A stretch of 41,497 bases of DNA, taken from positions 1 to 41,497 of IMG/VR virus record IMGVR_UViG_3300023284_000411; one strand, given 5' to 3'. This stretch comes from a virus. The position numbers and the translations under genes were made by a program. The notes below the pieces were generated by a model, which saw only the letters and a program-made list of their open reading frames with translations, ran no database searches and was not told the DNA's origin. Numbering within the stretch: position 1 is the stretch's first letter; every line of letters starts with the position of its first letter. Shown here in pieces: positions 11,747-41,497 of the stretch.

Positions 11747-12838
11747 ATGGCAAAAGACTTAGCAAACAGATCGAACATTGAAGGGCCGAACTCAGAGTTT
11801 CCAAGTGGTCAAATAAAAGATGAAACATCAGCTGGAGCACAAGACGGAACACCAATAAACAGGGATATTGCAGCTGATGCTCATCAGTTTTTTGCAAAGA
11901 TTATGAGGATTGCCGGGATTACTCCAAATGAAATAGAAGAGAGTGAGGTGAATGGTTTTCAACTTATTAACGCTTTAGATGCTTTTGCATTTGGTGATAG
12001 AATTTGGAAGCAAGTAGGAAATGATTTGAATATTGTTGGAACTGATACTCCTGGGATCGCAGCTCTTAGTGGTAACAGAATTGCTTTTGTTGACTCAACA
12101 AATAACGATTTAAGAACCTATGATTTTGACGGTGCCGATTGGGCTCAAGTTGGAAATGATTTGAATATTTCTGGAATGGACAATCCTGCCATCGCCGCGC
12201 TCAGTGGTAACAGAATTGCTTTTATAGACGATGCAAACCTAGATTTAAGAACCTATGATTTTGACGGTACCGATTGGGCTCAAGTTGGGAATGACTTGAA
12301 TATTACTTTAGTAGAAAATCCCGCTATGACCGCGCTCAGTGGTAACAGAATTGCTTTTATTGACACCGTAAACCTAGATTTAAGAACCTATGATTTTGAC
12401 GGTACCGATTGGGCTCAAGTTGGGAATGACTTAAATATTGTCGGAATGTCAAACTCTGGACTCGCCGCACTTAGTAGTAATAGAATTGCTTTTATTGACC
12501 AAGGAAATGACGATTTAAGAACCTATGATTTTGATGGTACAGATTGGGCACAAGTTGGAAATGATTTAAATATTACAGGAGTAACATTCCCTGCCATAAC
12601 CGCACTTAATAGCCGTAGAATTGCTTTTGTTGACTCAGCAAATGATAATTTAAGAACCTATGATTTTGACGGTGCCGATTGGGCTCAAGTTGGGAATGAC
12701 TTAGATATTACTGGAATAAGTATACTATCCGTAACCGCGCTTAGTAGTAACAGGATTGCATTTGTTGATACCTTAAATGATGATTTACAAACGTATGATT
12801 TTGCGGTAATTCCTAATCCATCACCTGCATTAAGCTGA
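11747..12838 (+). CDS. Tail fibre/adhesin with six propeller repeats
   Basis: 363 residues. The first 85 form an attachment domain following the baseplate gene. Then come six repeats of exactly 45 residues starting W-A-Q-V-G-N-D-L-N-I and containing L-S-G-N-R-I-A-F-I-D and L-R-T-Y-D-F-D-G (DNA 12005-12814). The repeats end eight residues before the C-terminus. The pattern suggests a six-bladed propeller made from near-identical blades, with differences concentrated in residues 11-18 and 31-35 of each unit. The place after gp48 is the normal tail-fibre slot. Receptor binding is inferred. Confidence 0.75.
   Translation: MAKDLANRSNIEGPNSEFPSGQIKDETSAGAQDGTPINRDIAADAHQFFAKIMRIAGITPNEIEESEVNGFQLINALDAFAFGDRIWKQVGNDLNIVGTDTPGIAALSGNRIAFVDSTNNDLRTYDFDGADWAQVGNDLNISGMDNPAIAALSGNRIAFIDDANLDLRTYDFDGTDWAQVGNDLNITLVENPAMTALSGNRIAFIDTVNLDLRTYDFDGTDWAQVGNDLNIVGMSNSGLAALSSNRIAFIDQGNDDLRTYDFDGTDWAQVGNDLNITGVTFPAITALNSRRIAFVDSANDNLRTYDFDGADWAQVGNDLDITGISILSVTALSSNRIAFVDTLNDDLQTYDFAVIPNPSPALS
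12005..12814 (+). repeat. Six tandem 135-bp repeats
   Basis: Unit starts (TGG codons) fall at 12005, 12140, 12275, 12410, 12545 and 12680, exactly 135 bp apart. Long stretches such as those coding LRTYDFDG and WAQVGNDL are almost identical in DNA, which implies recent duplication or gene conversion between units. Confidence 0.95.
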
Positions 12839-25337: not shown

Positions 25338-25398
25338 TATAACGCCTGTATATCAAGCGTGTGACGATAGGAACATGATTTGATCATACCGTGTTATG
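25338..25398 (+). repeat. attC-like imperfect palindrome a
   Basis: Ends AAC (25341-25343) and GTT (25393-25395, in GTTATG). Arm GTATATCA (25348-25355) pairs with TGATCATAC (25381-25389) with one extrahelical base. The middle is 25 unpaired bases. It lies between two small ORFs. Confidence 0.55.
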
Positions 25399-25436
25399 TG
25401 CTTGTCGGTTTATCAGAACTAAATTTAATTAAAAAA

Positions 25437-25634
25437 ATGGATAACAAAACAACATTTTACACGGAAGGATTTATGGAATCAATAGCCGAAATTGAAGGGA
25501 TAATTCAATTAAACAAAGGCGATGATTTTCTTGGAAAAGATGGACAACACTATACTATTATTTGGAAGGTGTACAATCCATTTTTGAACATAATGATATA
25601 TCACGGAAAATTGACTATCGAAGCACTAACGTAG
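25437..25634 (+). CDS. Cassette-type small protein (65 aa)
   Basis: 65 residues from the ATG at 25437 behind an A-rich leader; an upstream extension to 25380 covers palindrome a and is rejected. Contains KGDDFLGKDGQHYTIIWKV and YHGKLTI, strand-like. No family recognised. It is bracketed by palindromes a and b. Confidence 0.6.
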   Translation: MDNKTTFYTEGFMESIAEIEGIIQLNKGDDFLGKDGQHYTIIWKVYNPFLNIMIYHGKLTIEALT

Positions 25635-25640
25635 CCTTGC

Positions 25641-25707
25641 ACATAACGCTAAATCTATGTTATCGGATTTGCTTTTTAGCAAATATGGAATATAGATAAT
25701 GTTGCCA
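25641..25707 (+). repeat. attC-like imperfect palindrome b
   Basis: AAC (25645-25647) lies ten bases after the preceding stop; GTT at 25701-25703. Arms ATCTAT (25653-25658) and ATAGAT (25692-25697), inner hairpin ATTTGC/GCAAAT with a TTTTTA loop. Its outer 15 and 13 bases are identical to those of palindrome e, while the middle differs. Confidence 0.65.
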
Positions 25708-25742
25708 GTATTACGGTGAATTAAAAACTAAAGATAATTGAA

Positions 25743-26018
25743 ATGGACAAAATAATAGAATGGTTCGATGAGAACTACATAGAAGAAAAAATAACGATAT
25801 TTAAAATACTAGAAGAGGCATCTATAAAACACGCCTGTAATTTTGAATCGTTGTTTGAATCGTGCCAAATGATGAAACAAGCATACCCAGAAAAAACATC
25901 GCTTAGACGAGAGGTACAATACTTTGCGAAACTAGCGGATCACGGGATTAGTGGATATAACGCAGGTAAAAAACTAAGATCATATTTTGATGTAGGTCAA
26001 GTAATACGCAGTAAATAG
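25743..26018 (+). CDS. Cassette-type small protein (91 aa)
   Basis: 91 residues, helical, with EWFDENYIEEKITIFKIL at the start, several Cys and His (KHACNFESLFESCQMM), and a basic GKKLRSYFDVG end. No family recognised. Bracketed by palindromes b and c, with the stop ten bases before the AAC of c. Confidence 0.6.
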   Translation: MDKIIEWFDENYIEEKITIFKILEEASIKHACNFESLFESCQMMKQAYPEKTSLRREVQYFAKLADHGISGYNAGKKLRSYFDVGQVIRSK

Positions 26019-26026
26019 TATTACTG

Positions 26027-26075
26027 GTAACACCAAAATAAGAAGCGTTTTAATGCTTTCTTGTTGACTGTTATG
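26027..26075 (+). repeat. attC-like imperfect palindrome c
   Basis: AAC (26029-26031) ten bases after the stop; GTT at 26070-26072 (GTTATG). AAGAAGC (26040-26046) pairs with GCTTTCTT (26055-26062) with one extrahelical T; outer AACA/TGTT and CAA/TTG also pair. Loop GTTTTAAT. Confidence 0.65.
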
Positions 26076-26076
26076 A

Positions 26077-26136
26077 TGCGTTTTAATGCATCAAAATTTA
26101 ATTCCGTCTTGTACGGGTAAACAATAAAACCATGAA
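26077..26136 (+). repeat. 60-bp direct repeat, copy 1
   Basis: Matches 26470-26529 at 57 of 60 positions. It contains a TGCGTTTTAATGCATC hairpin, a CCGT-CTTGT-ACGG hairpin, the GGTAAACAATAAAACC leader and an ATG. The ATG opens only a ten-codon frame here. Confidence 0.9.
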
Positions 26137-26157
26137 AAAAGCAATAAGAGAATTGAT

Positions 26158-26205
26158 AGAAAAGTAAAATTAGAACCAGATTGGATATTAAAACAACTAG
26201 AATAA
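26158..26205 (+). pseudogene. Relic of a RuvC-type resolvase 3' end
   Basis: Bases 26158-26187 repeat 24729-24758 of the resolvase gene (30 of 30), and 26184-26205 repeat 24993-25014 (22 of 22). Read in the resolvase frame the joined piece encodes KLEPDWILKQLE and a stop, a plausible original C-terminus. There is no start or catalytic part, so it is a fragment left by duplication or cassette exchange. Confidence 0.8.
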
Positions 26206-26259
26206 TGGTAAGGCTATGTGTAGTGCCTGAGAACTACGCTAACTATAAAAACACAGACA

Positions 26260-26469
26260 ATGACTAACGAAGAAGCATTCCAACAGATAGCAGATAATCA
26301 GGCATTACATATAGCTAATGTTATGCACTGTTTGAAACAAGACCCTGACGCAAGTGAACACCATATAAACTACAAAAGAACTCCCGAATACTTACAGGAG
26401 CTAATTGATAAAGATGGAAGTTTATTGAGTGGGTTACTTGGTGCCATTGAAACATACTTAGAAAAATAG
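26260..26469 (+). CDS. Cassette-type small protein (69 aa)
   Basis: 69 residues, acidic and helical (MTNEEAFQQIADNQALHI read as a start; LQELIDKDGSLLSGLLGAIE near the end). No family recognised. Copy 2 of the 60-bp repeat begins one base after its stop. A 20-codon frame from 26204 overlaps its start. Confidence 0.6.
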   Translation: MTNEEAFQQIADNQALHIANVMHCLKQDPDASEHHINYKRTPEYLQELIDKDGSLLSGLLGAIETYLEK

Positions 26470-26529
26470 TGCGTTTTAATGCATCTAATTTTAATTACGT
26501 CTTGTACGGGTAAACAATAAAACCATGAA
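26470..26529 (+). repeat. 60-bp direct repeat, copy 2
   Basis: 57 of 60 bases match 26077-26136. It carries the same two small hairpins and leader, and its ATG (26525) opens a 33-codon gene. Two copies flank the 26.14-26.47 kb segment, so recombination between them could delete or insert it. Confidence 0.9.
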
Positions 26530-26626
26530 CAATATTAACGAAAGAACAAAACAACTGATCGAATTGGATATGATTCCAGGCGGAGACGGTTTCATAGGTA
26601 AACTTGCTACTCAAATAGGAAACTAA
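26525..26626 (+). CDS. Very small protein (33 aa)
   Basis: 33 residues: a polar helix, then a Gly-rich MIPGGDGFIGKLATQIGN end. It starts at the end of direct repeat copy 2. No family recognised; it precedes the DUF551-like gene by ten bases. Confidence 0.4.
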   Translation: MNNINERTKQLIELDMIPGGDGFIGKLATQIGN

Positions 26627-26636
26627 ATAAAAAATA

Positions 26637-26861
26637 ATGGATTGGATAAATGCAGACAAAAATACACCAAATGCATACAAAACGGGCAATTGGGATGGTA
26701 GAAACAGTGACGAAGTAATAGCTGAAGACAAAGCAGGAAAAAGGTATATTGCACATTTTTGTAAAGGTACTATCGATGGATCAACGTTTGAAGATTGGTA
26801 CGATAATAACGATTTTTTAATATTCACAAAAATAGTTAGATGGGTAGACCTACCTGAATAG
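26637..26861 (+). CDS. DUF551-like small protein
   Basis: 74 residues. Starts MDWINADKNTPN and closes with IVRWVDLPE, fitting the DUF551 pattern of an N-terminal W-I and a C-terminal W-x-x-L-P. In between are VIAEDKAGKRYIAHF and a FEDWYDNNDFL segment. Function unknown; the family is common in phage early regions. Confidence 0.6.
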   Translation: MDWINADKNTPNAYKTGNWDGRNSDEVIAEDKAGKRYIAHFCKGTIDGSTFEDWYDNNDFLIFTKIVRWVDLPE

Positions 26862-26899
26862 TTAAACTCTTAAATAATTAGTAAATAAACAAACATATT

Positions 26900-28246
26900 A
26901 TGTACATCAAGAAACTAGAATTAAAAAACTTCAAAGCCATCGAAGAGTTCGAGCGCGAGTTTGAAGGAAATGTATATCTCGTCACCGGGGAAAACGAAAT
27001 TGGCAAATCAACATTGCTAAACGCCATCACAACATTATTAACTGGAGACAGATCTAGCAATCTTCTGAAGCAGGGCAAGGAAAAGGGATTTGCCCGGGCT
27101 ACCGTCAAGGACAAAGACAGTGAGTATGATGTGGAGCTCAGGTTCTCAGAGACAAATCCAAGAGGTACGTTGACCATAAAAAATTCTGATGGCATGAAGT
27201 CTGACAACAAGACCATGATTCAGAAGATCTTCAACTATAGTGCATTTGATGCAAATGAGTTCATTGGTTGGAGTTCATCAGCTGAGGGCAAGAGAAAGCA
27301 AGTCAAAATTGTCAAGAGCCTATTAGATTCAGATGTGGTGAAACGACTTCAAGAGATTGAAACTGAAGTTGAAGAAACCAAGGAATCAAGAAAAGAAGTG
27401 AACGCCAAACACAAAGCCAACAAATCTATATTAGACAAATCTGAAATCACTCCGGACGATGTCAAAAATTTCTCTGACAAAAAGAGCATTAAGGATCTTT
27501 ATAATGCCAAGGAAAAAGCCATTACAGCGAACAACAAAATATTGGATGTTGAAACAAGAAAGGGGGAACGTTCAAGAGAGATTGAGAAATTTGATGAAGA
27601 GACTATCGAATATTCTCAGGCAAGTCTTATGACCATCGACGAACAGAAGAAATATATCAAAGGACTTGAGAAGGAAGCTGAAAAATATAAATTTGATAGG
27701 GTAGTTGAACTTAACAAGCTGAATGAAAAACAAAGAGCGGCAACAGAATGGTTGATGGAAAATCAAAGGCAAGACTCGATTGCAATTGAAACTGAGATCC
27801 AAGAGGCGGAGGTACATAATGATAAAAGTCATTCGGTCAAAGAATATGTTGTTGTCAAGGATGAATTGGATATACTTGAGACATCTCGTTCAGAATACAA
27901 TGATCAAATTGTAAAGCTTGAAGACGAGAAAACAAAGCTGATGAAAAACTCCCCTCTTCCAGTCAAAGGATTGACATTCACAGAACAAGGATTGTTTCTC
28001 AATGGAATACCATTTTCTCATGGAGAGGTTTCAAGTTCTCAAGAAATGGAAGTGGCAGTGAAATTGATCATTGCCATGAATCCAACTGTAAAAGTTTTCA
28101 AGATTGCACAGGGCGAATCTCTTGGAACCCAAAAGATGAGAGACATTGTGAATTTTGCCAAAAAGAATGGTTACCAGGGATTTATAGAGGAGGTGAAGAG
28201 GGGACAGGATGAATTGATAATCAACGAATATATTGAAGGAAAGTAG
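26900..28246 (+). CDS. RecF/Rad50-like ATPase with coiled coil
   Basis: 448 residues. Walker A is GENEIGKST at 30-38 after the KKLELKNFKAIEEFE strand; a long Lys/Glu-rich coiled coil spans about 140-350; the C-terminal part (LPVKGLTFTEQGLFLNG, EVSSSQEMEVAVKLIIAMN) contains the signature-like SSSQ region of SMC-type ATPases. It lacks a clear acidic Walker B pair. Such proteins act with a nuclease in DNA end processing; no SbcD-like nuclease is visible nearby. The TAAACAAACATATT leader lacks a Shine-Dalgarno sequence. Confidence 0.75.
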   Translation: MYIKKLELKNFKAIEEFEREFEGNVYLVTGENEIGKSTLLNAITTLLTGDRSSNLLKQGKEKGFARATVKDKDSEYDVELRFSETNPRGTLTIKNSDGMKSDNKTMIQKIFNYSAFDANEFIGWSSSAEGKRKQVKIVKSLLDSDVVKRLQEIETEVEETKESRKEVNAKHKANKSILDKSEITPDDVKNFSDKKSIKDLYNAKEKAITANNKILDVETRKGERSREIEKFDEETIEYSQASLMTIDEQKKYIKGLEKEAEKYKFDRVVELNKLNEKQRAATEWLMENQRQDSIAIETEIQEAEVHNDKSHSVKEYVVVKDELDILETSRSEYNDQIVKLEDEKTKLMKNSPLPVKGLTFTEQGLFLNGIPFSHGEVSSSQEMEVAVKLIIAMNPTVKVFKIAQGESLGTQKMRDIVNFAKKNGYQGFIEEVKRGQDELIINEYIEGK

Positions 28247-28265
28247 TGTGTTTATTTTTTTATTA

Positions 28266-28302
28266 GGAGTAGCGTGTGTCGAAATCCGCTACTCCATTTT
28301 TA
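28266..28302 (+). terminator. Hairpin terminator after the ATPase gene
   Basis: Perfect 9-bp stem GGAGTAGCG (28266-28274) with CGCTACTCC (28287-28295), followed by A and five T. It may end or attenuate transcription before the next gene, which starts 18 bases past the stem. Confidence 0.75.
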
Positions 28303-28312
28303 AACAAATATT

Positions 28313-28735
28313 ATGAAAGACAGAGATTTTATATTGTTCGGACAGACAAACAATAAAGGTCAATTGATGTTCGGAAATGCTCCTGAGTTAAGTAAATTTT
28401 TAAGCCAATGGCCAAACCAACAATTTGTCATGGACATTACAGTCATCGAGACTGGAACCAGTGAAGCACTAATCGGATATTACAAACGGGTAATAGTTTC
28501 ACAATTCCAAAAAGCTTACAAACACAAACAAGGAGAGCGACTGACCCCGAAGGAAGTCGACTTGAGATTAAGGAAGATGAGTTCAATCATGCATGAGACA
28601 GACAGAGAATTTAATTTGAAATACACAATCACGATTGAAGCTGCTGGAAATCACAGAGCATCTGAATTTATAGAAGATTTGATATTTCTAGGAGCTGAGA
28701 ATTTTGGCATAGCCATAAAAGAACCTAATTCATAA
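28313..28735 (+). CDS. Unknown protein (140 aa), possibly recombination-related
   Basis: 140 residues: strands DFILFGQTNNKGQLMFG, FVMDITVIETGTSEALIGYYKR, then Lys/Arg-rich helices and LKYTITIEAAGNH. The layout (beta hairpin, I-T-V strand, GYY helix) loosely resembles NinB-type recombination proteins, but I cannot establish this. It follows the ATPase gene after a terminator. Confidence 0.6.
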   Translation: MKDRDFILFGQTNNKGQLMFGNAPELSKFLSQWPNQQFVMDITVIETGTSEALIGYYKRVIVSQFQKAYKHKQGERLTPKEVDLRLRKMSSIMHETDREFNLKYTITIEAAGNHRASEFIEDLIFLGAENFGIAIKEPNS

Positions 28736-28745
28736 ATTAATTAGA

Positions 28746-29045
28746 ATGAAAATACCAAAAAAATTTAACGTGTTTGCTTCTACAATAAATGTACGATTTG
28801 ATAACGTAAGATTAAGCAATGAGGGCATGTTAGGTGATTGTAGCTTTACAGATAACCAAATAAATATCTGCTCTGAATACAAAGGCAAAAAAGTAACTGA
28901 GTGTATTACAGTAGACACATTCTACCACGAAAAAGTACATATTATTTTAGATGCAATGGGTGAACACAAACTATCAAAAAAAGAAAAATTTGTAGAAGTA
29001 TTTGCAAGACTTCTTAAGCAATCTGATGAAAGCGCAGAGTTTTAG
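28746..29045 (+). CDS. Mini-metallopeptidase with HExxH motif
   Basis: 99 residues. HEKVH at 61-65 is a zincin-type metal and catalytic motif, with Glu84 in KFVEVFARLL placed as a possible third ligand, the layout of small phage or ImmA-like peptidases. The N-terminal half is a beta sheet (INVRFDNVRLS, DNQINICSEY). Substrate unknown; cleavage of a host regulator would be a plausible early role. Confidence 0.65.
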   Translation: MKIPKKFNVFASTINVRFDNVRLSNEGMLGDCSFTDNQINICSEYKGKKVTECITVDTFYHEKVHIILDAMGEHKLSKKEKFVEVFARLLKQSDESAEF

Positions 29046-29103
29046 CATTACACACAATGGTAAGGCTATACGCTGTTTTTAATAACCACAAAAGATTTGA
29101 ATT

Positions 29104-29307
29104 ATGAGCAAGACTAAGAAAAATGGCGATATAGCCAGTGTTAGCAATCGTTACATAGTAACAGCTATTCAATTAGCCGATTGGGAAAATGTAGCGATAG
29201 GAGACAATACAACTGGAAGAGTAATCTGCCATATTAGTAATGAATTAGATTTTGAAGATGCTAAAAAATTAGCGGATAAAATAGCAGATCATCTTAATGA
29301 TTGCTAA
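29104..29307 (+). CDS. Cassette-type small protein (67 aa)
   Basis: 67 residues: basic start, strands VSNRYIVTAIQLADWE and GRVICHISN, then an acidic/Lys helix (DAKKLADKIADHLND). An alpha/beta mini-domain of unknown function. The downstream 90 bases contain weak palindromes I could not resolve. Confidence 0.55.
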   Translation: MSKTKKNGDIASVSNRYIVTAIQLADWENVAIGDNTTGRVICHISNELDFEDAKKLADKIADHLNDC

Positions 29308-29398
29308 CAACCATATATCATCATTGACTATATTTTTCTACGTAGTTGAAAACGCCCGTATAGGAGGTGTGGAGTGAAATGTTATGATTAGTTGATTT

Positions 29399-29587
29399 AT
29401 GGAAGAAAAAGAAATTAAATGGTTATCAGGATTTATTGAATGTGATTTATGTGGGTGTATTTATTTGTGCTGTTATCATATAGACACTGAAAAAATTCAA
29501 TGTAAGGTATGCGAGAACATGGTAAGATTCGAGCCAAAAACGGTTCAAGAATGGAAGAATGCTCCTGTCCGAAAACGGATAAAGTAG
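29399..29587 (+). CDS. Small Cys-rich protein (62 aa)
   Basis: 62 residues with CDLCGC, CCYH, then CKVC, enough ligands for one or two zinc sites, and a basic tail. Function unknown. A second zinc-motif gene begins inside its 3' end in another frame. Confidence 0.55.
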   Translation: MEEKEIKWLSGFIECDLCGCIYLCCYHIDTEKIQCKVCENMVRFEPKTVQEWKNAPVRKRIK

Positions 29588-29685
29588 CAGAAAGAGAATT
29601 TTATTATAAACAAAAAAATAAGTTCTCAGGGACTAGGATTTTTTGTAAATGTGGTCATGATTGGTTTATACCAGATGGATCATAA
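29551..29685 (+). CDS. Small zinc-motif protein (44 aa), overlapping
   Basis: 44 residues from an ATG inside the preceding gene (37-base overlap). Cys-Ser-Cys near the start and CKCGHDW near residue 33 form a plausible zinc ribbon. Its stop overlaps an ATGGTAAG start. Small size makes it less certain. Confidence 0.45.
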   Translation: MEECSCPKTDKVAEREFYYKQKNKFSGTRIFCKCGHDWFIPDGS

Positions 29686-29725
29686 TGGTAAGTGTATCAA
29701 TAGTGCGATTTAAAACAACAAAACT

Positions 29726-29842
29726 ATGAATCAAGATCAGAAAATAATAGAAGTATTACATGACTTTGAAACTTTCAAAATGTCAGAAAAAGAGCAAGGA
29801 GTGTATGCCCACACAAGCAGCTATAAGCCGTATATAGAATGA
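29726..29842 (+). CDS. Very small protein (38 aa)
   Basis: 38 residues: an acidic/Gln start (MNQDQKIIEVLHDFETF) and AHTSSYKPYIE at the end. Its stop overlaps the next ATG by four bases, which supports a real, coupled gene. No family recognised. Confidence 0.45.
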   Translation: MNQDQKIIEVLHDFETFKMSEKEQGVYAHTSSYKPYIE

Positions 29843-30084
29843 AAAAAGTTAAAATAATTGAAGGTGTAGTTGCTGAGTATGACGGTAAATATTGGGGAAA
29901 ACAAGAATGGGATAATATGGACTTTGGCGATATAGAAAGAGCTGATATAAGTAACCCTGAATTTTGTAAAAAACCAACAGATAAAACGTCAGAAAACCAA
30001 ATAAGTTATTACAACGCTTTAAGCAATGCGAAATTAATTAAGATTAAGAAGACAATAACTACTGAGTTTGAAATGCTGACGTAG
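29839..30084 (+). CDS. Cassette-type small protein (81 aa)
   Basis: 81 residues: strand start MKKVKIIEGVVAEYDGKYWG, an acidic middle, and a KLIKIKKTITTEFEM strand at the end. No family recognised. Its stop lies ten bases before the AAC of palindrome e. Confidence 0.6.
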   Translation: MKKVKIIEGVVAEYDGKYWGKQEWDNMDFGDIERADISNPEFCKKPTDKTSENQISYYNALSNAKLIKIKKTITTEFEMLT

Positions 30085-30090
30085 TATTAA

Positions 30091-30157
30091 TGCTAACGCT
30101 AAATCTATAATGCAGCGTTAGCGACCCGACAGGGTGCATTTATAGATAATGTTAGAA
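30091..30157 (+). repeat. attC-like imperfect palindrome e
   Basis: AAC (30095-30097) ten bases after the stop; GTT at 30151-30153 (GTTAGAA, closest here to the GTTRRRY box). Arms ATCTAT/ATAGAT and AATGCA/TGCATT. A 9-bp inverted repeat GCTAACGCT/AGCGTTAGC offers an alternative fold. Shares both ends with palindrome b. Confidence 0.65.
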
Positions 30158-30190
30158 TGAATACGGATTTAACAACCAAAATATTTTAAG

Positions 30191-30370
30191 ATGAAAAAGT
30201 TAACACAAAAAGAATTAGAAGCAAGAGTATTAATCGCAGGAGATTTAATGAGAGAAGGCGAAGTGAAAAGGTTAGAATGTTTTAGGGTAGAGGTAGACGC
30301 TGCTCTTGGTGAAAATACGGGAGATTTGAAGTTTGACAAAAATAAAGATTACGATAAGAGTGAAATGTAG
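30191..30370 (+). CDS. Cassette-type small protein (59 aa)
   Basis: 59 residues from the ATG at 30191: helix LTQKELEARVLIAGDLM, strand VKRLECFRVEVDAALG and an acidic/Lys end. No family recognised. It sits alone between palindromes e and f, the clearest single-gene cassette layout. Confidence 0.6.
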   Translation: MKKLTQKELEARVLIAGDLMREGEVKRLECFRVEVDAALGENTGDLKFDKNKDYDKSEM

Positions 30371-30376
30371 TATTCA

Positions 30377-30491
30377 TTCTAACGATCTAATAAACCCCGT
30401 GCAGCTAACGTCATGCTGTATGGTGCCGCTCACGGGTAGCAATTTAGTTTCTCACATCGGCTAAAGCATGGGGTTTTATTTTATGTTATAG
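30377..30491 (+). repeat. attC-like imperfect palindrome f
   Basis: AAC (30381-30383) ten bases after the stop; GTT at 30485-30487. AAACCCCGTGC (30392-30402) pairs with GCATGGGGTTT (30466-30476) with one wobble. The 63-base middle has its own CCCGTG/CACGGG pairing. The longest element of the set. Confidence 0.7.
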
Positions 30492-30508
30492 ATTTTTAAT
30501 TTAAGAAT

Positions 30509-30748
30509 ATGGAGGAAGCTGAAATGTTAGGGTATTTACTAGCCCGAAAAAAGAGACTAGAGGACAGTAAAAGTTCTTTAACAAGCGGTAGATTTTCTTC
30601 GGCAATAAGACCAAGAATACGAGAGCTGGAATCTATAATCAGAGACTTACAAGATGGGACTTTATGTGAACATGATATGAAAGCCGTTAGGGATAGTAGA
30701 TACCCGTATAAACCAATAAGGTGTATTAAATGTGGTTACGAACCGTAA
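30509..30748 (+). CDS. Cassette-type small protein (79 aa)
   Basis: 79 residues: helical Arg/Lys/Glu-rich first half (LLARKKRLEDSKSSL, IRELESIIRDLQ), then CEHD and CIKCGYEP, a possible C-terminal zinc site. No family recognised. It lies between palindromes f and g. Confidence 0.6.
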   Translation: MEEAEMLGYLLARKKRLEDSKSSLTSGRFSSAIRPRIRELESIIRDLQDGTLCEHDMKAVRDSRYPYKPIRCIKCGYEP

Positions 30749-30754
30749 TTCACT

Positions 30755-30807
30755 ACAACATCAAGCTAAAACGCGTTTTTTCAATGCATTTTGAGCGTCT
30801 GTTATCG
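30755..30807 (+). repeat. attC-like imperfect palindrome g
   Basis: AAC (30757-30759) and GTT (30801-30803, GTTATC). GCTAAAACGC (30765-30774) pairs with GCATTTTGAGC (30786-30796) with one extrahelical base and one wobble. Loop GTTTTTTCAAT. A CGAGC-GTTTTAAT-GCTCG hairpin follows at 30806-30823. Confidence 0.65.
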
Positions 30808-30859
30808 AGCGTTTTAATGCTCGTTCTAATAAATAATTTTTAAACAAATAAATAATACA

Positions 30860-31450
30860 ATGAATATGAAACCAGAAAAAAAGGATTTCACTTTGAAGAA
30901 ATTAAAAATCAAAGCTGGAGTCGTTCACATTGAAGCAGAAGCTCAATTCAGTGAAGAGAACACAGTACATACTCAGAAGATAAACGATGATTTCACGTTT
31001 GTCCCTCACGATGATTTGACAAGCCAACTGGAATTATTGAAAGACCCTCTCGCAAGAGTTCACGGATTGTTGAATGCTGAAATTGTCATCAAGGCTTCTG
31101 ATTTTAAGGCAACAGCAGCTCAGAAAAAGGTCGCAGAAATATCAAGTGCAAGTGCATTGATGGATACTTCTGTCACAGGAGTTGCTCTATCAGGATCAGA
31201 TCAAAACAAAGGATGTGTGATCACTGGAGTTTATGATGGCCAGGCAATCAATTCCAAGAGGATCAAATTCATTGGAAGTAGTCTTGGATTTGAAGATAAA
31301 ATCGAGGGTGCAACAAAAGCAATCTATGATGAGGTGTTTGCTTATCTATATGAGGAAAAGAGAGGAGAGGTTGAAATGTTGGTAGATGCAAATCAAACCA
31401 GCATTCTTGATGCAGAAGAGGAAAAGGAGCTAGCAGAGATTGAATCTTGA
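30860..31450 (+). CDS. Unknown protein (196 aa)
   Basis: 196 residues: N-terminal strands (FTLKKLKIKAGVVHIEAEAQF), HDDLTSQLELLKDPLARVHGLL near 50, a Ser/Ala-rich centre with ITGVYDGQAINSKRIKFIG, and an acidic C-terminal helix. I associate this type of protein with Bacteroidota phage early regions, function unknown. The TTTTTAAACAAATAAATAA leader is typical here. Confidence 0.65.
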   Translation: MNMKPEKKDFTLKKLKIKAGVVHIEAEAQFSEENTVHTQKINDDFTFVPHDDLTSQLELLKDPLARVHGLLNAEIVIKASDFKATAAQKKVAEISSASALMDTSVTGVALSGSDQNKGCVITGVYDGQAINSKRIKFIGSSLGFEDKIEGATKAIYDEVFAYLYEEKRGEVEMLVDANQTSILDAEEEKELAEIES

Positions 31451-31472
31451 GAAAATTCATAGTATATTACAA

Positions 31473-31534
31473 AGGGCTCAGTCATGGAGTAATTACCTGA
31501 TGAAAGCGGTTACTGAATCCGTTGCCCTATTTTA
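31473..31534 (+). repeat. Structured intergenic element
   Basis: AGGGC (31473-31477) pairs with GCCCT (31524-31528) around a 46-base interior that has AGTAA/TTACT pairing, followed by ATTTTAATT. It could be a weak terminator or an RNA element before the homing-endonuclease gene. Confidence 0.4.
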
Positions 31535-31559
31535 ATTCAGTCCACAAAAATTCAGAATC

Positions 31560-32111
31560 ATGGAAAAAGAAGTTTGGAAATCAATAAAAGGATTTGATAA
31601 TTATTTAGTGTCAAACCACGGCAGAATATTTTCAGTAAAGCGAAAGATATTATGCAAGCATAAGTCAACATTTTATTATAGAAAGTGGCCTTCAAAAATG
31701 CTGAGGCTTGGTGATCATAAAGATGGGTATCCTCTTGTGAAGTTAGTAGATAGTAACCGACGAATATGTCCGCGCAAAGTTCATAGGCTTGTTACAATTC
31801 ATTTTGTAAGAAATTTAAATCCTGAAAAATATAATGTTGTGAATCACTTAGATTCAGATCCAAAAAACAATCATTATTCAAATTTAGAATGGACTGACGC
31901 AATAGGTAATATGAAACATTGTATTGCTATGGGTAGAAATACCCCAGCACTTGGAGAAATTAATGGCAATTCTAAATTAACCAGTAATCAAGTTCAAGAA
32001 ATAAGAGAAAAACGTAACTTCTCACGTTTAAAGGATTTGGCTATTGAATATAATGTATCTGTGTCAGTCATTAGCCAAATTTGTAATTTGAAAACTTGGA
32101 AACATGTTTAG
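31560..32111 (+). CDS. HNH homing endonuclease (NUMOD4-HNH type)
   Basis: 183 residues. Residues 3-50 fit the NUMOD4 motif (VWKSIKGFDNYLVSNHGRI), 70-115 the HNH core (KVHRLVTIHF then VVNHLDSDPKNNHYSNLEW), and the C-terminal 50 a NUMOD-like helix-turn-helix (KLTSNQVQEIREK, DLAIEYNVS). Free-standing homing endonucleases of this kind spread into phage genomes. It overlaps the next gene by eight bases. Confidence 0.85.
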   Translation: MEKEVWKSIKGFDNYLVSNHGRIFSVKRKILCKHKSTFYYRKWPSKMLRLGDHKDGYPLVKLVDSNRRICPRKVHRLVTIHFVRNLNPEKYNVVNHLDSDPKNNHYSNLEWTDAIGNMKHCIAMGRNTPALGEINGNSKLTSNQVQEIREKRNFSRLKDLAIEYNVSVSVISQICNLKTWKHV

Positions 32112-32508
32112 GCCCTATCCAAAAAAAACTAGCAGAAAAAAGAGTTGTTACAAAACAACTACGGGCGAAGAATTAACACAAACACAAATTAATAGTAGAA
32201 GGGCAAAGGCTTATTCAGAAAATACGAAACCGATAGAATCAATGTGCAAGTGCTGTGATAAAAGACATGCAGAGCATAGGGATCACTCGATATCTCAAGC
32301 AAGATGTAAGCAATTGCACAAAGTAGAGTTGATATGGGATCCTCTTAATTGGTCACTGAGTTGTTCTGTTTGCCATAATTCTTGGGAATCGTACAAAAAT
32401 AGTGCTTTTAAAGAGCATAAAAATTATTCAATACGGATGAATTTCGTGAAATTACATGATCCGGAGGGATACCGTAAAAGAATTAATTTACCAAGATTTA
32501 AACCGTGA
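32104..32508 (+). CDS. HNH-type zinc-binding nuclease candidate
   Basis: 134 residues, basic. CKCC near 48, HRDHSISQARCKQL near 57, LNWSLSCSVCHNSWE near 82: a zinc-bound beta-beta-alpha HNH-like layout with paired Cys. A role in recombination or nicking is possible. The overlaps on both sides suggest one transcription unit with the homing endonuclease. Confidence 0.6.
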   Translation: MFRPYPKKTSRKKSCYKTTTGEELTQTQINSRRAKAYSENTKPIESMCKCCDKRHAEHRDHSISQARCKQLHKVELIWDPLNWSLSCSVCHNSWESYKNSAFKEHKNYSIRMNFVKLHDPEGYRKRINLPRFKP

Positions 32509-32807
32509 TGTTGTATTTGAATAGAAATAACGAATTGTGCGAATGCTCCAAGCATGATTTTAAAATGTTTGTGAACGCTAAAAATGTAAAAAAAATGACT
32601 CTTACTTCAAACGAGAACGGGTTTATCAAGATGTGGCAAGACAGAATCAGAGAGATAGAACAGACGGGAAACTGTATGAACGGGAATGTTCATAATCAAA
32701 TGCCATATTTTGGTGAGAAAGTACCAAAAGAAAGAAAGATTGCTTTTTGCGAAAATATGATCTATAGACTTGAAAAAAGAGAATTACAAAAAAAAAACTT
32801 GATATAA
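32505..32807 (+). CDS. Unknown small protein (100 aa)
   Basis: 100 residues: NRNNELCECSKHDFKMFV at the start, FIKMWQDRIREIEQTGNCMNG in the centre, and a helical Lys/Arg-rich end. No family recognised. It overlaps the HNH-like gene by four bases; a promoter begins at its stop. Confidence 0.55.
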   Translation: MMLYLNRNNELCECSKHDFKMFVNAKNVKKMTLTSNENGFIKMWQDRIREIEQTGNCMNGNVHNQMPYFGEKVPKERKIAFCENMIYRLEKRELQKKNLI

Positions 32808-32838
32808 TTTGTTTTTATGATTTAAAAGTATAAATTTG
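32808..32838 (+). promoter_or_regulatory. Promoter of the hexapeptide-repeat gene (TTTG-N19-TAAATTTG)
   Basis: TTTG at 32808-32811, 19 bases, then TAAATTTG at 32831-32838, a full match to the Bacteroidota consensus. Transcription would start near 32844, placing the AATCAAGAGCAA motif (32849-32860) at the very 5' end of the mRNA. Confidence 0.75.
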
Positions 32839-32865
32839 ATATAGAATTAATCAAGAGCAAACATC

Positions 32866-33471
32866 ATGAAAGTAATATGTTTAAGAGGTAAAAATTACAA
32901 TTGGAAATCATTTGAGTACACCTCTATTAAAGACTTATCAAGTGAGCTTATAGAAAGAAGTATAAGCATAGGAGACCGTGCCTGCATAGGAGACGATGCC
33001 TTCATAGGAGACTATGCCTTCATAGGAAACGATGCCTCCATAGGAGACCGTGCCTCCATAGGAAACCATGCCTTCATAGGATACCGTGCCTCCATAGGAA
33101 ACCATGCCTTCATAGGATACCGTGCCTCCATAGGAAACGATGCCTCCATAGGAAACCATGCCTTCATAGGATACCGTGCCTCCATAGGAGACCGTGCCTC
33201 CATAGGAGACCATGCCTTCATAAGATACCGTGCCTTCATAGGAAACTGTGAAAATATAGTAACAGGATTCTATTTATCAGGATCTAAACACACAATTAGC
33301 TATGTAGGTTCTGGTAAAATATCTATAGGATGTCACTGTAAGTCAATATCTACCTTCAAAAAGGTGTATAAAAAGCTAGGAAAAAAAGAAGGTTATTCAG
33401 ACAATGAGATTAAAGAATATTACTCCTATATAAAACTAGCAGAACAGTTTTATAAAAACCTACAGTCATGA
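32866..33471 (+). CDS. Left-handed beta-helix (hexapeptide repeat) protein
   Basis: 201 residues. Residues 34-129 are sixteen perfect-register hexapeptides of the form S/F-I-G-x-x-A, the signature of a left-handed parallel beta-helix of about five coils. The C-terminal 70 residues contain SYVGSGKISIGCH and a helical GYSDNEIKEYYSYIK tail. Hexapeptide proteins are often trimeric acyltransferases, but no catalytic His is evident, so enzymatic function is unproven. It has its own promoter and the leader motif. The last four bases overlap the next gene. Confidence 0.75.
   Translation: MKVICLRGKNYNWKSFEYTSIKDLSSELIERSISIGDRACIGDDAFIGDYAFIGNDASIGDRASIGNHAFIGYRASIGNHAFIGYRASIGNDASIGNHAFIGYRASIGDRASIGDHAFIRYRAFIGNCENIVTGFYLSGSKHTISYVGSGKISIGCHCKSISTFKKVYKKLGKKEGYSDNEIKEYYSYIKLAEQFYKNLQS
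32965..33252 (+). repeat. Sixteen tandem 18-bp units
   Basis: The sequence coding the hexapeptides repeats every 18 bases (core ATAGGA-A/G-AC then GCCTCC or GCCTTC). High DNA identity between units makes length change by slippage likely. Confidence 0.95.
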
Positions 33472-33662
33472 AAACTAATAAGTTGACAGAATGTCCTCAA
33501 TGCCAGGCTATTTGGGGATTTGACGAAATACAATTCCAAGAATGCGATGCATGCGAATACCAAGCATTGCAAGACGATGAAGATCCCAACGATCTAATAC
33601 CACCAGACCTTTCTGAACAAGGAAATTCGTTTGGAACAGGAGTAGGTTTAAAGTGGGATTAA
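33468..33662 (+). CDS. Small zinc-ribbon protein (64 aa)
   Basis: 64 residues with CPQC (9-12) and CDAC (27-30), a standard zinc-ribbon spacing, then an acidic, Pro-rich tail. It overlaps the hexapeptide gene by four bases (ATGA). Function unknown. Confidence 0.6.
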   Translation: MKTNKLTECPQCQAIWGFDEIQFQECDACEYQALQDDEDPNDLIPPDLSEQGNSFGTGVGLKWD

Positions 33663-33752
33663 CGTTGAACTAAAATGAGTTTTATCGATATTGAATACTT
33701 CATGAATCGACAATACAAATAAGATTATTGTAACATTAAAAACAAAAAAAGG

Positions 33753-34091
33753 ATGGTAGAAATTAAAAGAAAGGAGTTCATTAATCACGACGTGTACTCG
33801 GTTTTACACGGACAGTTGAAGGAAAACCACAAAGTACCTGACTACGCTATTGAGTTATTTAGCCAAAACAAGAACGTCAATGACTTTTGGCAGCAATCTA
33901 AGCATTTTGCCTTTATAAAAGCTAAGAGCCCATTGTATATGCATTATATCGTAATATCCAGGGTTAAAGATCAGCACATCATAACAAACATAGTTTCTAT
34001 ATCGATATACGATAATCAAGCTGAGTATGAAATTGCTAGGGTTGGTACCTTACAAAGTGCCAGATACTCAGACATAACAGAAGCGGCTTAG
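33753..34091 (+). CDS. Unknown small protein (112 aa)
   Basis: 112 residues: basic start (MVEIKRKEFINHDVYSVLHG), helix with YAIELFSQNKNVNDFWQQS, and strands MHYIVISRVKD and ITNIVSISIYD. An alpha/beta domain of unknown function. Palindrome h lies 40 bases downstream. Confidence 0.6.
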   Translation: MVEIKRKEFINHDVYSVLHGQLKENHKVPDYAIELFSQNKNVNDFWQQSKHFAFIKAKSPLYMHYIVISRVKDQHIITNIVSISIYDNQAEYEIARVGTLQSARYSDITEAA

Positions 34092-34128
34092 TAACAGTAG
34101 CTAATTATGGATGTGTTAAATCATGAGA

Positions 34129-34183
34129 CATAACGTGGTTTGTATCATCCGTTTTTTCAATGGATTGATACATAATGTTATCT
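34129..34183 (+). repeat. attC-like imperfect palindrome h
   Basis: AAC (34132-34134) and GTT (34177-34179, GTTATC). TGTATCATCC (34141-34150) pairs with GGATTGATACA (34162-34172) with a single extrahelical T. Loop GTTTTTTCAAT, the same as in palindrome g despite unrelated stems. Confidence 0.7.
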
Positions 34184-34236
34184 TCTGGTTTCTTTTTTAG
34201 GGAGGCAATTTTTATTAAATAAATAAGACAAAAGAC

Positions 34237-34267
34237 TTGCATATATAAGACTAATGTCTTATCTTTA
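34237..34267 (+). promoter_or_regulatory. Promoter with operator palindrome (TTG-N20-TATCTTTA)
   Basis: TTG at 34237-34239 and TATCTTTA at 34260-34267, spacer 20. The spacer contains TAAGAC-TAAT-GTCTTA (34246-34261), a perfect inverted repeat touching the -7 element, a likely repressor site. It drives the small-gene run starting at 34295. Confidence 0.65.
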
Positions 34268-34294
34268 CTTCATAATCAATTAAACAATACGAAG

Positions 34295-34495
34295 ATGAAA
34301 GGATTAGCAGACAAAATCAACAAACTAACAGGAATGCCAACGGTAACAGTTTCACAGAAAGAATTAGCTGGCGAAATGAGGTTTGTAATAACTGTAAACG
34401 GAAAAGTGACAGTCAAGCTGGATGAGGATAATTGTATATCATTTTTGGACGGATTTTATTCTTGCTTAATGATGAACGAAAATATTAAATTTTAG
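34295..34495 (+). CDS. Unknown small protein (66 aa)
   Basis: 66 residues: helix MKGLADKINKLTG, strands TVTVSQKELAGEMRFVITVNG and KVTVKLDEDN, then FLDGFYSCLM. First gene behind the operator-type promoter. No family recognised. Confidence 0.6.
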   Translation: MKGLADKINKLTGMPTVTVSQKELAGEMRFVITVNGKVTVKLDEDNCISFLDGFYSCLMMNENIKF

Positions 34496-34499
34496 AGCA

Positions 34500-34697
34500 A
34501 TGGTAGAAGATAAAAAAATAAGATACAGGGAGTTTATTATTGAAAAAACATGGATTTCGAGTACTCACACAGAGTGGGTCTTTTATAGTGAAAATTCAGG
34601 GGGTGAAACTTCCGCAACAGGGATAGACCTAAATGATATTATTGACGAAATTGATGAGATGATCATAGTGGCTAAAGCGGATGGGATAGTACTATGA
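34500..34697 (+). CDS. Unknown small protein (65 aa)
   Basis: 65 residues: YREFIIEKTWISSTHTEWVFY strands, then an acidic Ile/Asp-rich helix (DLNDIIDEIDEMI). Starts four bases after the previous stop and overlaps the next ATG by four bases. No family recognised. Confidence 0.55.
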   Translation: MVEDKKIRYREFIIEKTWISSTHTEWVFYSENSGGETSATGIDLNDIIDEIDEMIIVAKADGIVL

Positions 34698-34882
34698 TCC
34701 ATAAAGCATACAACAAAACCGAAATAGCGGAACTCTACTATAAAAAACTAGGTCGATTCACAACGAGGGATCAGGCAAAAAAGAACTTTTCTTTATTAAA
34801 ACATCCAGACGCCAAGCTGATAGCAGAAATATTGGATGAAGTACATAAGGAGGCTAAACAGCTTATACGCACAGGCGGGTAG
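34694..34882 (+). CDS. Small DNA-binding-like protein (62 aa)
   Basis: 62 residues, helical: YNKTEIAELYYKKLGRFT then RDQAKKNFSLLKHPDAKLIAEIL, reminiscent of a short helix-turn-helix but without a clear match. It overlaps the preceding gene by four bases. Confidence 0.5.
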   Translation: MIHKAYNKTEIAELYYKKLGRFTTRDQAKKNFSLLKHPDAKLIAEILDEVHKEAKQLIRTGG

Positions 34883-34931
34883 GCAAAAGAAACCATCTGT
34901 ACGGAGAATTAACAACTAAAATTATATTGAA

Positions 34932-35138
34932 ATGGATATTTACGAAAAAAAAGGAACAGAAGTAAAATACACTGGTAAAGGTGGTTATGATCACCATAAG
35001 GAACACGCAGACAAACACCTAACTGTGGGGGGAATATATACAGTAGATCATACAGAAGTGGGAAGATGGCACACTGATGTTTATTTGATTGAGGTAAAAA
35101 ATGAGGGGTTCAACTCTGTCCATTTTGAGCAATTGTAG
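34932..35138 (+). CDS. Cassette-type small SH3-like protein (68 aa)
   Basis: 68 residues: Gly/His-rich start (GTEVKYTGKGGYDHHKEHAD), then strands HLTVGGIYTVDHTEVG, DVYLIEVKNEG and VHFEQL, a small beta-barrel-like layout. Function unknown. Its stop lies ten bases before the AAC of palindrome i. Confidence 0.6.
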   Translation: MDIYEKKGTEVKYTGKGGYDHHKEHADKHLTVGGIYTVDHTEVGRWHTDVYLIEVKNEGFNSVHFEQL

Positions 35139-35145
35139 TATAGCT

Positions 35146-35198
35146 GCTAACATCGGCATAATCGCTGTGGGTAGCATTGCGAATTATAGAGTATTATG
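35146..35198 (+). repeat. attC-like imperfect palindrome i
   Basis: AAC (35149-35151) ten bases after the stop; the right end reads ATT (35193-35195) instead of GTT. ATAATCGC (35158-35165) pairs with GCGAATTAT (35179-35187) with one extrahelical A. A TGATGC-GTTTTAAT-GCATCA hairpin follows at 35197-35216. Confidence 0.6.
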
Positions 35199-35239
35199 AT
35201 GCGTTTTAATGCATCAAATTTTAAACTTTAAGAACTAAA

Positions 35240-41174: not shown

Positions 41175-41497
41175 ATGAAACCAGTATATCAAACAAACAA
41201 CACAGTAGAGGAGGGCAACTGCTTAGCTGCATGCCTTGCTTCAATACTAGAAGACGATATCGAATCGTATCCAACATTACCAGAGAATGGCACATGGCTA
41301 GGGGTCATCAATGATCATCTATTAACCAAGGGCTATGTCATCGTTACATTACTCAAGCCACCAACAAATGTATTTGATACCTATTACATTGGTATAGTAC
41401 ACAACAATACAAAACATTGTGATCATGCTGTTGTTATGTTGGATACGATTCGATATCGTCTTCTAGTATTGAAGCAAGGCATGCAGCTAAGCAGTTG
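41175..41497 (+). CDS. Cys-peptidase-like protein, truncated at the window end
   Basis: Open from the ATG at 41175 to the end. GNCLAACLASILEDDI near residue 15 and CDHAVVML near 82 resemble a small Cys-His family in phages and bacteria (papain-like, C39-type layout), in which the motif is followed by a closing strand. From 41436 the sequence is the reverse complement of this gene's own 5' part, so residues after about 87 are not trustworthy. Confidence 0.55.
   Translation, partial: MKPVYQTNNTVEEGNCLAACLASILEDDIESYPTLPENGTWLGVINDHLLTKGYVIVTLLKPPTNVFDTYYIGIVHNNTKHCDHAVVMLDTIRYRLLVLKQGMQLSS
41216..41277 (+). repeat. Left arm of a 62-bp perfect inverted repeat
   Basis: Exact reverse complement of 41436-41497. 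Lies within the coding region of the last gene. Confidence 0.95.
41436..41497 (-). repeat. Right arm of a 62-bp perfect inverted repeat at the sequence end
   Basis: Exact reverse complement of 41216-41277, ending at the last base of the window. Most likely a fold-back assembly or amplification artefact; a genuine terminal hairpin is less likely. Confidence 0.95.

Follow-up and report, generated by a model that had tools for sequence, protein, structure and literature searches.

A gene-cassette array in a Bacteroidota-type virus and a candidate phage-borne integron-like system

The DNA analysed here, termed the window, is the entire 41,497-bp IMG/VR record IMGVR_UViG_3300023284_000411, a virus of Bacteroidota-type bacteria whose tail sheath has its nearest counterparts, at 46% identity, in FCV-1-group phages of Flavobacterium. 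It contains eight imperfect palindromes that resemble the attC sites of integrons. We consider it very probable that these palindromes and the small open reading frames (ORFs) adjoining them are gene cassettes of a phage-borne integron-like system, in which a recombinase encoded by related phages inserts cassettes at an attI site. The array architecture, the complementarity between the two ends of a cassette, the linkage of such arrays to an attI-like site and an integrase gene, and precise insertion or exchange between near-identical contigs are all observed in the sequences. The window itself is an integrase-less array of the CALIN type (cluster of attC sites lacking integron integrases), since neither a recombinase gene nor an attI-like site was found in it; a sequence-only reading of this DNA had likewise seen no integrase. 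Its sites are presumably served in trans by a co-infecting phage or a prophage.

All eight palindromes named in that reading exist, with AAC starting 2-4 nt further right than it had placed them (the first coordinate of each line below). They are grouped in clusters, and ordinary phage genes fill the stretches that separate these. All lie on the + strand, as do the ORFs. As the same reading had held, all face one way, the AAC of five (palindromes 2, 3, 4, 5 and 8) starts exactly 10 nt past a stop codon, and one palindrome, the last, ends in ATT. The weakest folds are those at 30757 and 35149.

25341..25395, + strand: palindrome 1, AACGCC...CGTGTT, a stem with an unpaired central spacer (UCS) of 4+3
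25645..25703, + strand: palindrome 2, AAC 10 nt past the stop codon
26029..26072, + strand: palindrome 3, apical loop CGTTTTAATG, 10 nt past the stop codon
30095..30153, + strand: palindrome 4, 10 nt past the stop codon
30381..30487, + strand: palindrome 5, 107 nt, 10 nt past the stop codon, top stem score (19.3)
30757..30803, + strand: palindrome 6, weak, apical loop GTTTTTTCAAT, AAC 8 nt past the stop codon
34132..34179, + strand: palindrome 7, stem score 17.0, UCS 4+1, ORF stop 40 nt upstream
35149..35195, + strand: palindrome 8, weak, ends in ATT, stem ATAATCGC / GCGAATTAT with one extrahelical base, 10 nt past the stop codon

Folding by itself is little proof, because a generic scan of the entire window for AAC..GTT hairpins is near background, and it was not used as evidence. 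Sites were instead assessed by a pairing score with shuffles, their lengths of 46-133 nt defeating a plain alignment as the basis of a covariance model; a search of Rfam gave no match. A restricted scan, demanding an AAC no more than about 25 nt away from a stop codon and then a paired stem ending at GTT, found a match in 6 of 34 gaps against 0.51 expected from shuffled gaps (maximum 4 in 300 shuffles), and at a higher threshold in 4 gaps against 0.11 (maximum 1). The eight palindromes are real and above chance.

Examination of the ORF units between such sites reveals that each starts with GTT plus about 7-10 unit-specific bases and ends with the reverse complement of those bases plus AAC. The box sequence differs from unit to unit, and within a unit the 5' box (GTT+N) and the 3' box (N'+AAC) are complementary. 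In the circular form of an integron cassette the two ends meet within a single attC, and own-end complementarity is for this reason an integron cassette trait. Three window ORFs carry this signature:

25393..25647, + strand: unit of a 65-aa ORF (25437-25634), own repeat GTTATGTGC / GCACATAAC, complementarity score 6
25701..26031, + strand: unit of a 91-aa ORF (25743-26018), own repeat GTTGCCAGTATTA / TATTACTGGTAAC, complementarity score 6
30151..30383, + strand: unit of a 59-aa ORF (30191-30370), perfect 13-bp repeat GTTAGAATGAATA / TATTCATTCTAAC, score 10/10

The window and nine viral loci together hold 239 ORFs, and among these 17 units reach a score of at least 6 against a permutation mean of 0.9 (maximum 5 in 200); the window alone contributes 3 against 0.2 expected. 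Neighbouring units across one site reach this score in only 3 cases. The result is replicated in integrase-linked loci, where 73 of 1294 ORFs score at least 8 (1.06 expected, maximum 4 in 100). In both sets the complementarity frequently spans 10-13 bp instead of 7.

A tyrosine recombinase is encoded in 4 of 24 array-bearing records and, in 2 of these, directly behind the last cassette on the same strand. Searching with this array-linked recombinase yielded 80 viral loci, and in 60 of the 62 usable ones a conserved attI-like site, AAC-TATTATATATA, is present (13% in shuffled sequence). The median distance from its AAC to the recombinase gene downstream, taken at the match start, is 59 bp, and the AAC is preceded by bases that vary as cassette ends do. 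Among 72 units with an own-end score of at least 7, 69 share the strand of the recombinase and lie upstream of it, one is downstream and two are on the other strand, even with more sequence searched downstream than upstream. The integrase stands at the 3' end of the arrays, with the cassette ORFs directed toward it; in one locus (L163) a row of eleven small ORFs, most of them separated by sites, is followed by attI and the integrase. Together, own-end complementarity and the linked recombinase with its attI-like site support the attC-type interpretation that the sequence-only reading had given to the palindromes.

By sequence, the two-domain recombinase of about 265 aa is closest to XerA (family profile; E 3e-52 to PDB 4a8e and 1e-41 to 5hxy), and its modelled fold (predicted local distance difference test score, pLDDT, 89) is closest to IntI4 and XerA. 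The profile alignment with IntI4 (2a3v) breaks where the phage enzyme has about 31 residues and IntI4 about 79, so the IntI-specific insert is missing. This insert has been described as essential for integron function, yet is incompletely conserved (PMC8138268). The integron-integrase model TIGR02249 gives the phage enzyme 147.8 bits, under its cut-off of 265. Among the isolated phages of INPHARED the best matches to the recombinase reach only 37% or less, and 1 of 198 Bacteroidota genomes encodes a close copy at 49% identity, accompanied by an attI-like site, in what looks like a prophage. A prophage-like part of a Bacteroidota chromosome (L252, G108:C1:248000-267000) holds the recombinase, attI and a cassette-like region; within its array, an apparent reverse-transcriptase (group II intron-like) element is present three times.

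The 101 integrase-linked sites start with AACG in 99 cases and have a left spacer of 5 nt in 78 and a right spacer of 2 nt in 58; in the window, the left spacer measures 4-6 nt and the right one 1-5 nt. Extrahelical stem bases give strand choice in integrons; stems of the integrase-linked sites have no net bulge in 77 of 101 cases and a net one-base bulge in 22 (19 left, 3 right). The integron core box GTTRRRY fits 6 of 69 cassette units, about as expected by chance, and right ends in the window are chiefly GTTATG, GTTATC, GTTGCC or GTTAGA, bearing out the earlier remark that most right ends lack this box. The accompanying idea of a separate or host-derived system holds for the first term, given the boxes without RRRY and the XerA/IntI-like enzyme without the insert. 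The second fits less well: array-bearing viral contigs encode an integrase with its own attI-like site, so that the system counts as phage-borne, not simply as host-derived.

Comparison of closely related contigs provides natural instances of insertion. L187 differs from L189 by a single extra cassette of 797 bp exactly at the AAC/GTT core, with flanks that are identical over 118/118 bp on the left and 98% identical over 2.6 kb on the right; the extra unit comprises a hairpin, GTTATGTACAGGTGC, a 169-aa ORF and GCACTTGTACATAA. In four further pairs, homology is lost exactly at the TAAC before the integrase: L197/L198 (99.97% over 5.85 kb), L188/L189 (100% over 2.65 kb), L145/L146 (100% over 1.23 kb) and L181/L183 (99.7% over 5.85 kb). 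The exchange point can be resolved to TAAC/GTTA and no finer. Precise gain or loss of units at GTT, which the sequence-only reading had looked to as a check, is hence seen in related viral contigs, with no relatives of the window itself found for the same comparison. In gene direction, the L187 insertion assigns the hairpin to the ORF behind it; viewed from attI, the ORFs run antisense, and hairpin polarity is that of classical attC. By analogy with this insertion, three mobile cassettes can be predicted in the window:

25343..25646, + strand: predicted mobile cassette 1, palindrome 1 with the 65-aa ORF
25647..26030, + strand: predicted mobile cassette 2, palindrome 2 with the 91-aa ORF
30097..30382, + strand: predicted mobile cassette 3, palindrome 4 with the 59-aa ORF

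We propose that a cassette, read in gene direction, would be [hairpin site]-GTT-leader-ORF-AA. Upon circularization its ends would meet and re-form the complete hairpin, the base of which would be the ORF-specific GTT-N / N'-AAC repeat. The XerA/IntI-like tyrosine recombinase of related phages could then insert this circle at the attI-like AAC-TATTATATATA just upstream of its own gene, with exchange probably taking place inside the TAAC/GTTA core, so that new cassettes would stack beside the integrase, each ORF facing it. The circular intermediate, the recognition of single-stranded hairpins and catalysis by this phage recombinase are likely elements of the process, and recombination by the phage enzyme is suggested by natural sequence differences between contigs.

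Several components of the window array recur elsewhere. Searches of IMG/VR with palindromes 2 and 4 recovered two unrelated contigs, L004 and L005, that carry these arms in a different context. Palindrome 2 is 98.3% identical to L005 385-443 across exactly AAC..GTT (59 bp) with both flanks different, and palindrome 4 has both 19-nt arms identical to, and a loop different from, the L004 site. In L004 and L005 the palindromes are followed by the leader TACGGATT..AACAACTAAA, also present in the window. Searches with the leader and then with the tail TAGTATTACTGCTAACG brought out many contigs of Bacteroidota-type phages in which small ORFs alternate with hairpins; the hairpin stems are unrelated in sequence and the hairpin ends identical (TAACG, TGTTA). 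Leaders are strongly conserved between cassettes (about 45-50 bp). The apical loop of palindrome 1, TGACGATAGGAAcATGA, matches a palindrome of the isolated Polaribacter phage P12002L in 16 of 17 bases (E 0.03), and that of palindrome 3 recurs in many integrase-linked sites. The window is thereby tied to the system by own-end repeats, spacer geometry, the L004/L005 hairpins, leaders and the P12002L loop. The loop of palindrome 3 was also noted in ORF-less mini units adjoining attI (L152, L161, L163, L183, L207).

A 73-aa ORF found in many viral contigs always extends, in its cassette form, from GTTAGCAGTAGTACGG to TAGTATTACTGCTAAC with hairpins that vary on both sides. DNA methyltransferase cassettes likewise share one common frame with varying hairpins around it in about 14 contigs. 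A hairpin always travelling with the ORF on its left, the classical arrangement in ORF direction, was rejected because one ORF meets differing downstream hairpins, as the 73-aa and methyltransferase ORFs do, and the L187 unit has its hairpin upstream. The 73-aa gene also occurs without boxes as an ordinary operon gene (set L044, L045, L046, L047, L052, L058); three of these (L044, L046, L052) contain apparent half-converted forms that may show a route from gene to cassette. The contigs with the methyltransferase frame (L063, L073, L076, L081, L089, L090, L092, L100, L102, L105, L106, L115, L118, L123) carry different enzymes with the same leader and the same C-terminal tail (KEKEFNVVTSFGDGM), the leader CTTTTTCTTTTCTTTTTT being complementary to the 3' end of the coding sequence; it looks as though the core of the enzyme is exchanged within the cassette. 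The same array type with own-end repeats is seen in a 462-kb jumbo phage (L040, LR756500.1), where stems contain TATATTTG, similar to the Bacteroidota -7 promoter element.

The system is integron-like in its working and not a textbook integron, because the IntI insert is missing, the core boxes depart from GTTRRRY and the hairpin spacer is an asymmetric 5+2. With integrons (IntI/attI/attC) it shares a tyrosine recombinase, a single adjoining attI-like site, an array of mostly single-ORF units, hairpin sites with an unpaired spacer, own-end complementarity and attI insertion inside the GTT core. It differs in the insert-less recombinase, the GTT(A) box without RRRY, the mostly 5+2 nt spacer, ORFs that face the integrase and carriage by phages. 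In Treponema-type integrons with a non-divergent intI (PMC3607928), intI is transcribed toward attI and the cassettes, whereas the phage arrays stand upstream of intI, with ORFs that face attI and intI. XerA/Xer-type recombinases (4a8e, 5hxy) are nearest in sequence and agree in two-domain length. Xer recombinases act at dif sites in the resolution of chromosome dimers; the phage gene, unlike these, is tied to cassette arrays. The CALIN-bearing phages of Flavobacteriia, such as P12002L, come close in their own-end repeats, TAAC..GTTA hairpins 3' of ORFs and methyltransferase cassettes (the P12002L methyltransferase genes have the same own-end repeats), and differ in having no member of this recombinase family at useful identity (isolated-phage best matches of 37% or less).

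Such CALINs in phages (Qi et al. 2023, PMC9892861) bear on the best-placed alternative, namely that the units are ordinary IntI-type CALIN cassettes that came out of a bacterial integron and are moved by a standard IntI of the host. CALINs with IntI1-active attC sites are published from virulent phages including P12002L, where one (attC2) of the two attC sites put to the test recombined with attI1 under IntI1 (PMC9892861). P12002L shows the same architecture as the arrays here, although the tested sites may differ from those compared in this analysis. Own-end complementarity is also of the integron type. Nevertheless, we regard this alternative as improbable, in view of the core boxes (6 of 69), a co-located integrase that has no IntI insert and scores 147.8 against 265, and ORFs that run toward it. 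Furthermore, the exact leader pattern is absent from 395 Bacteroidota genomes and the site pattern CACATAACG..GTTATGTG from 118. Three genome-collection matches to TAACGCTAAAT..ATAATGTTAG were judged to be due to chance, two of them lying inside one conserved gene.

The hairpins could alternatively function at the RNA level as 3' processing or terminator structures, with the ORF-specific repeat pairing mRNA 5' and 3' ends, in moron-like modules shuffled by phage homologous recombination via shared leaders. Leaders conserved over about 45-50 bp, the exonuclease VIII-type functions encoded in the window and the extended own complementarity of methyltransferase cassettes inside the transcript would suit such a scheme, which we nonetheless find still harder to credit: it predicts neither an attI-like site fused to the recombinase gene (60 of 62 loci) nor homology loss and single-unit insertion exactly at TAAC. 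That the palindromes are small mobile elements moving independently of the ORFs, akin to repetitive extragenic palindromes (REP) or miniature inverted-repeat transposable elements (MITE), is most improbable of all, for despite the near-identity of palindrome 2 in L005 between different flanks and the differing hairpins on both sides of one ORF, stems are diverse, share no terminal recognition sequence beyond AAC(G)/GTT, and leave ORF-specific end complementarity and the hairpin + ORF unit of L187 unexplained.

Some observations weigh against the proposed phage-borne integron-like system, at least as applied to the window. Both the recombinase gene and the attI-like site are absent from it, its cassette ORFs are essentially absent from integrase-linked loci, and no further contig with the 91-aa ORF was found. 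Mobility of its own units is accordingly not directly seen. Further, its sites do not share the AACGGTTG/AACGTTTTG sequence of most integrase-linked sites, the spacer geometry being shared. The comparative loci, apart from P12002L, LR756500 and plasmid or genome records, are metagenomic contigs with repeats, making mis-assembly possible, but the divergence pattern recurs across independent pairs; several loci are near-duplicates, so the counts are not fully independent. In IMG/VR, protein searches with the window SbcC-like ATPase, 196-aa and 91-aa proteins gave no relatives, so the comparison includes no close relative of the window phage.

In light of the above, it seems reasonably likely that Bacteroidota-type phages possess their own integron lineage, with an insert-less XerA-type recombinase turned cassette integrase with its own attI, and a large virus-borne pool of cassettes (including DNA methyltransferases) exchanged among unrelated phages, many carrying the array only. 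Integrons are familiar as platforms by which bacteria capture genes; phages, too, appear to possess them in complete form, and viruses thus seem to run their own version of this machine. Phage CALINs are already published, and the elements that may be new here are the recombinase family, its attI and reversed arrays in phages. A literature search, with preprints and most subscription journals outside it, found no description of these three, and a prior description is possible. A phage integrase without a part held essential for cassette recombination makes it testable what a tyrosine recombinase needs for folded single-stranded attC sites. The system would also explain the one-at-a-time gain and loss of small phage accessory genes, such as methyltransferases, at fixed boundaries, and the attI motif and own-end repeats offer anchors for arrays missed by canonical integron searches.

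A leader-like segment is repeated in the window at 26077-26139 and 26470-26532 (94% over 63 bp); this segment (also the pair 26071-26101 / 35194-35224) contains a small hairpin, GATGCGTTTTAATGCATC, and stands before small ORFs. The right end of the record has a 74-bp inverted repeat (41216-41289 / 41424-41497, 95%), possibly a fold-back assembly artefact or the genome end. An ORF at 32866-33471 includes an 18-bp tandem repeat (ATAGGAgACCrTGCCTcC) that encodes a short repeated peptide, and long tandem repeats of about 135 bp lie within a structural-region ORF at 11990-12808.

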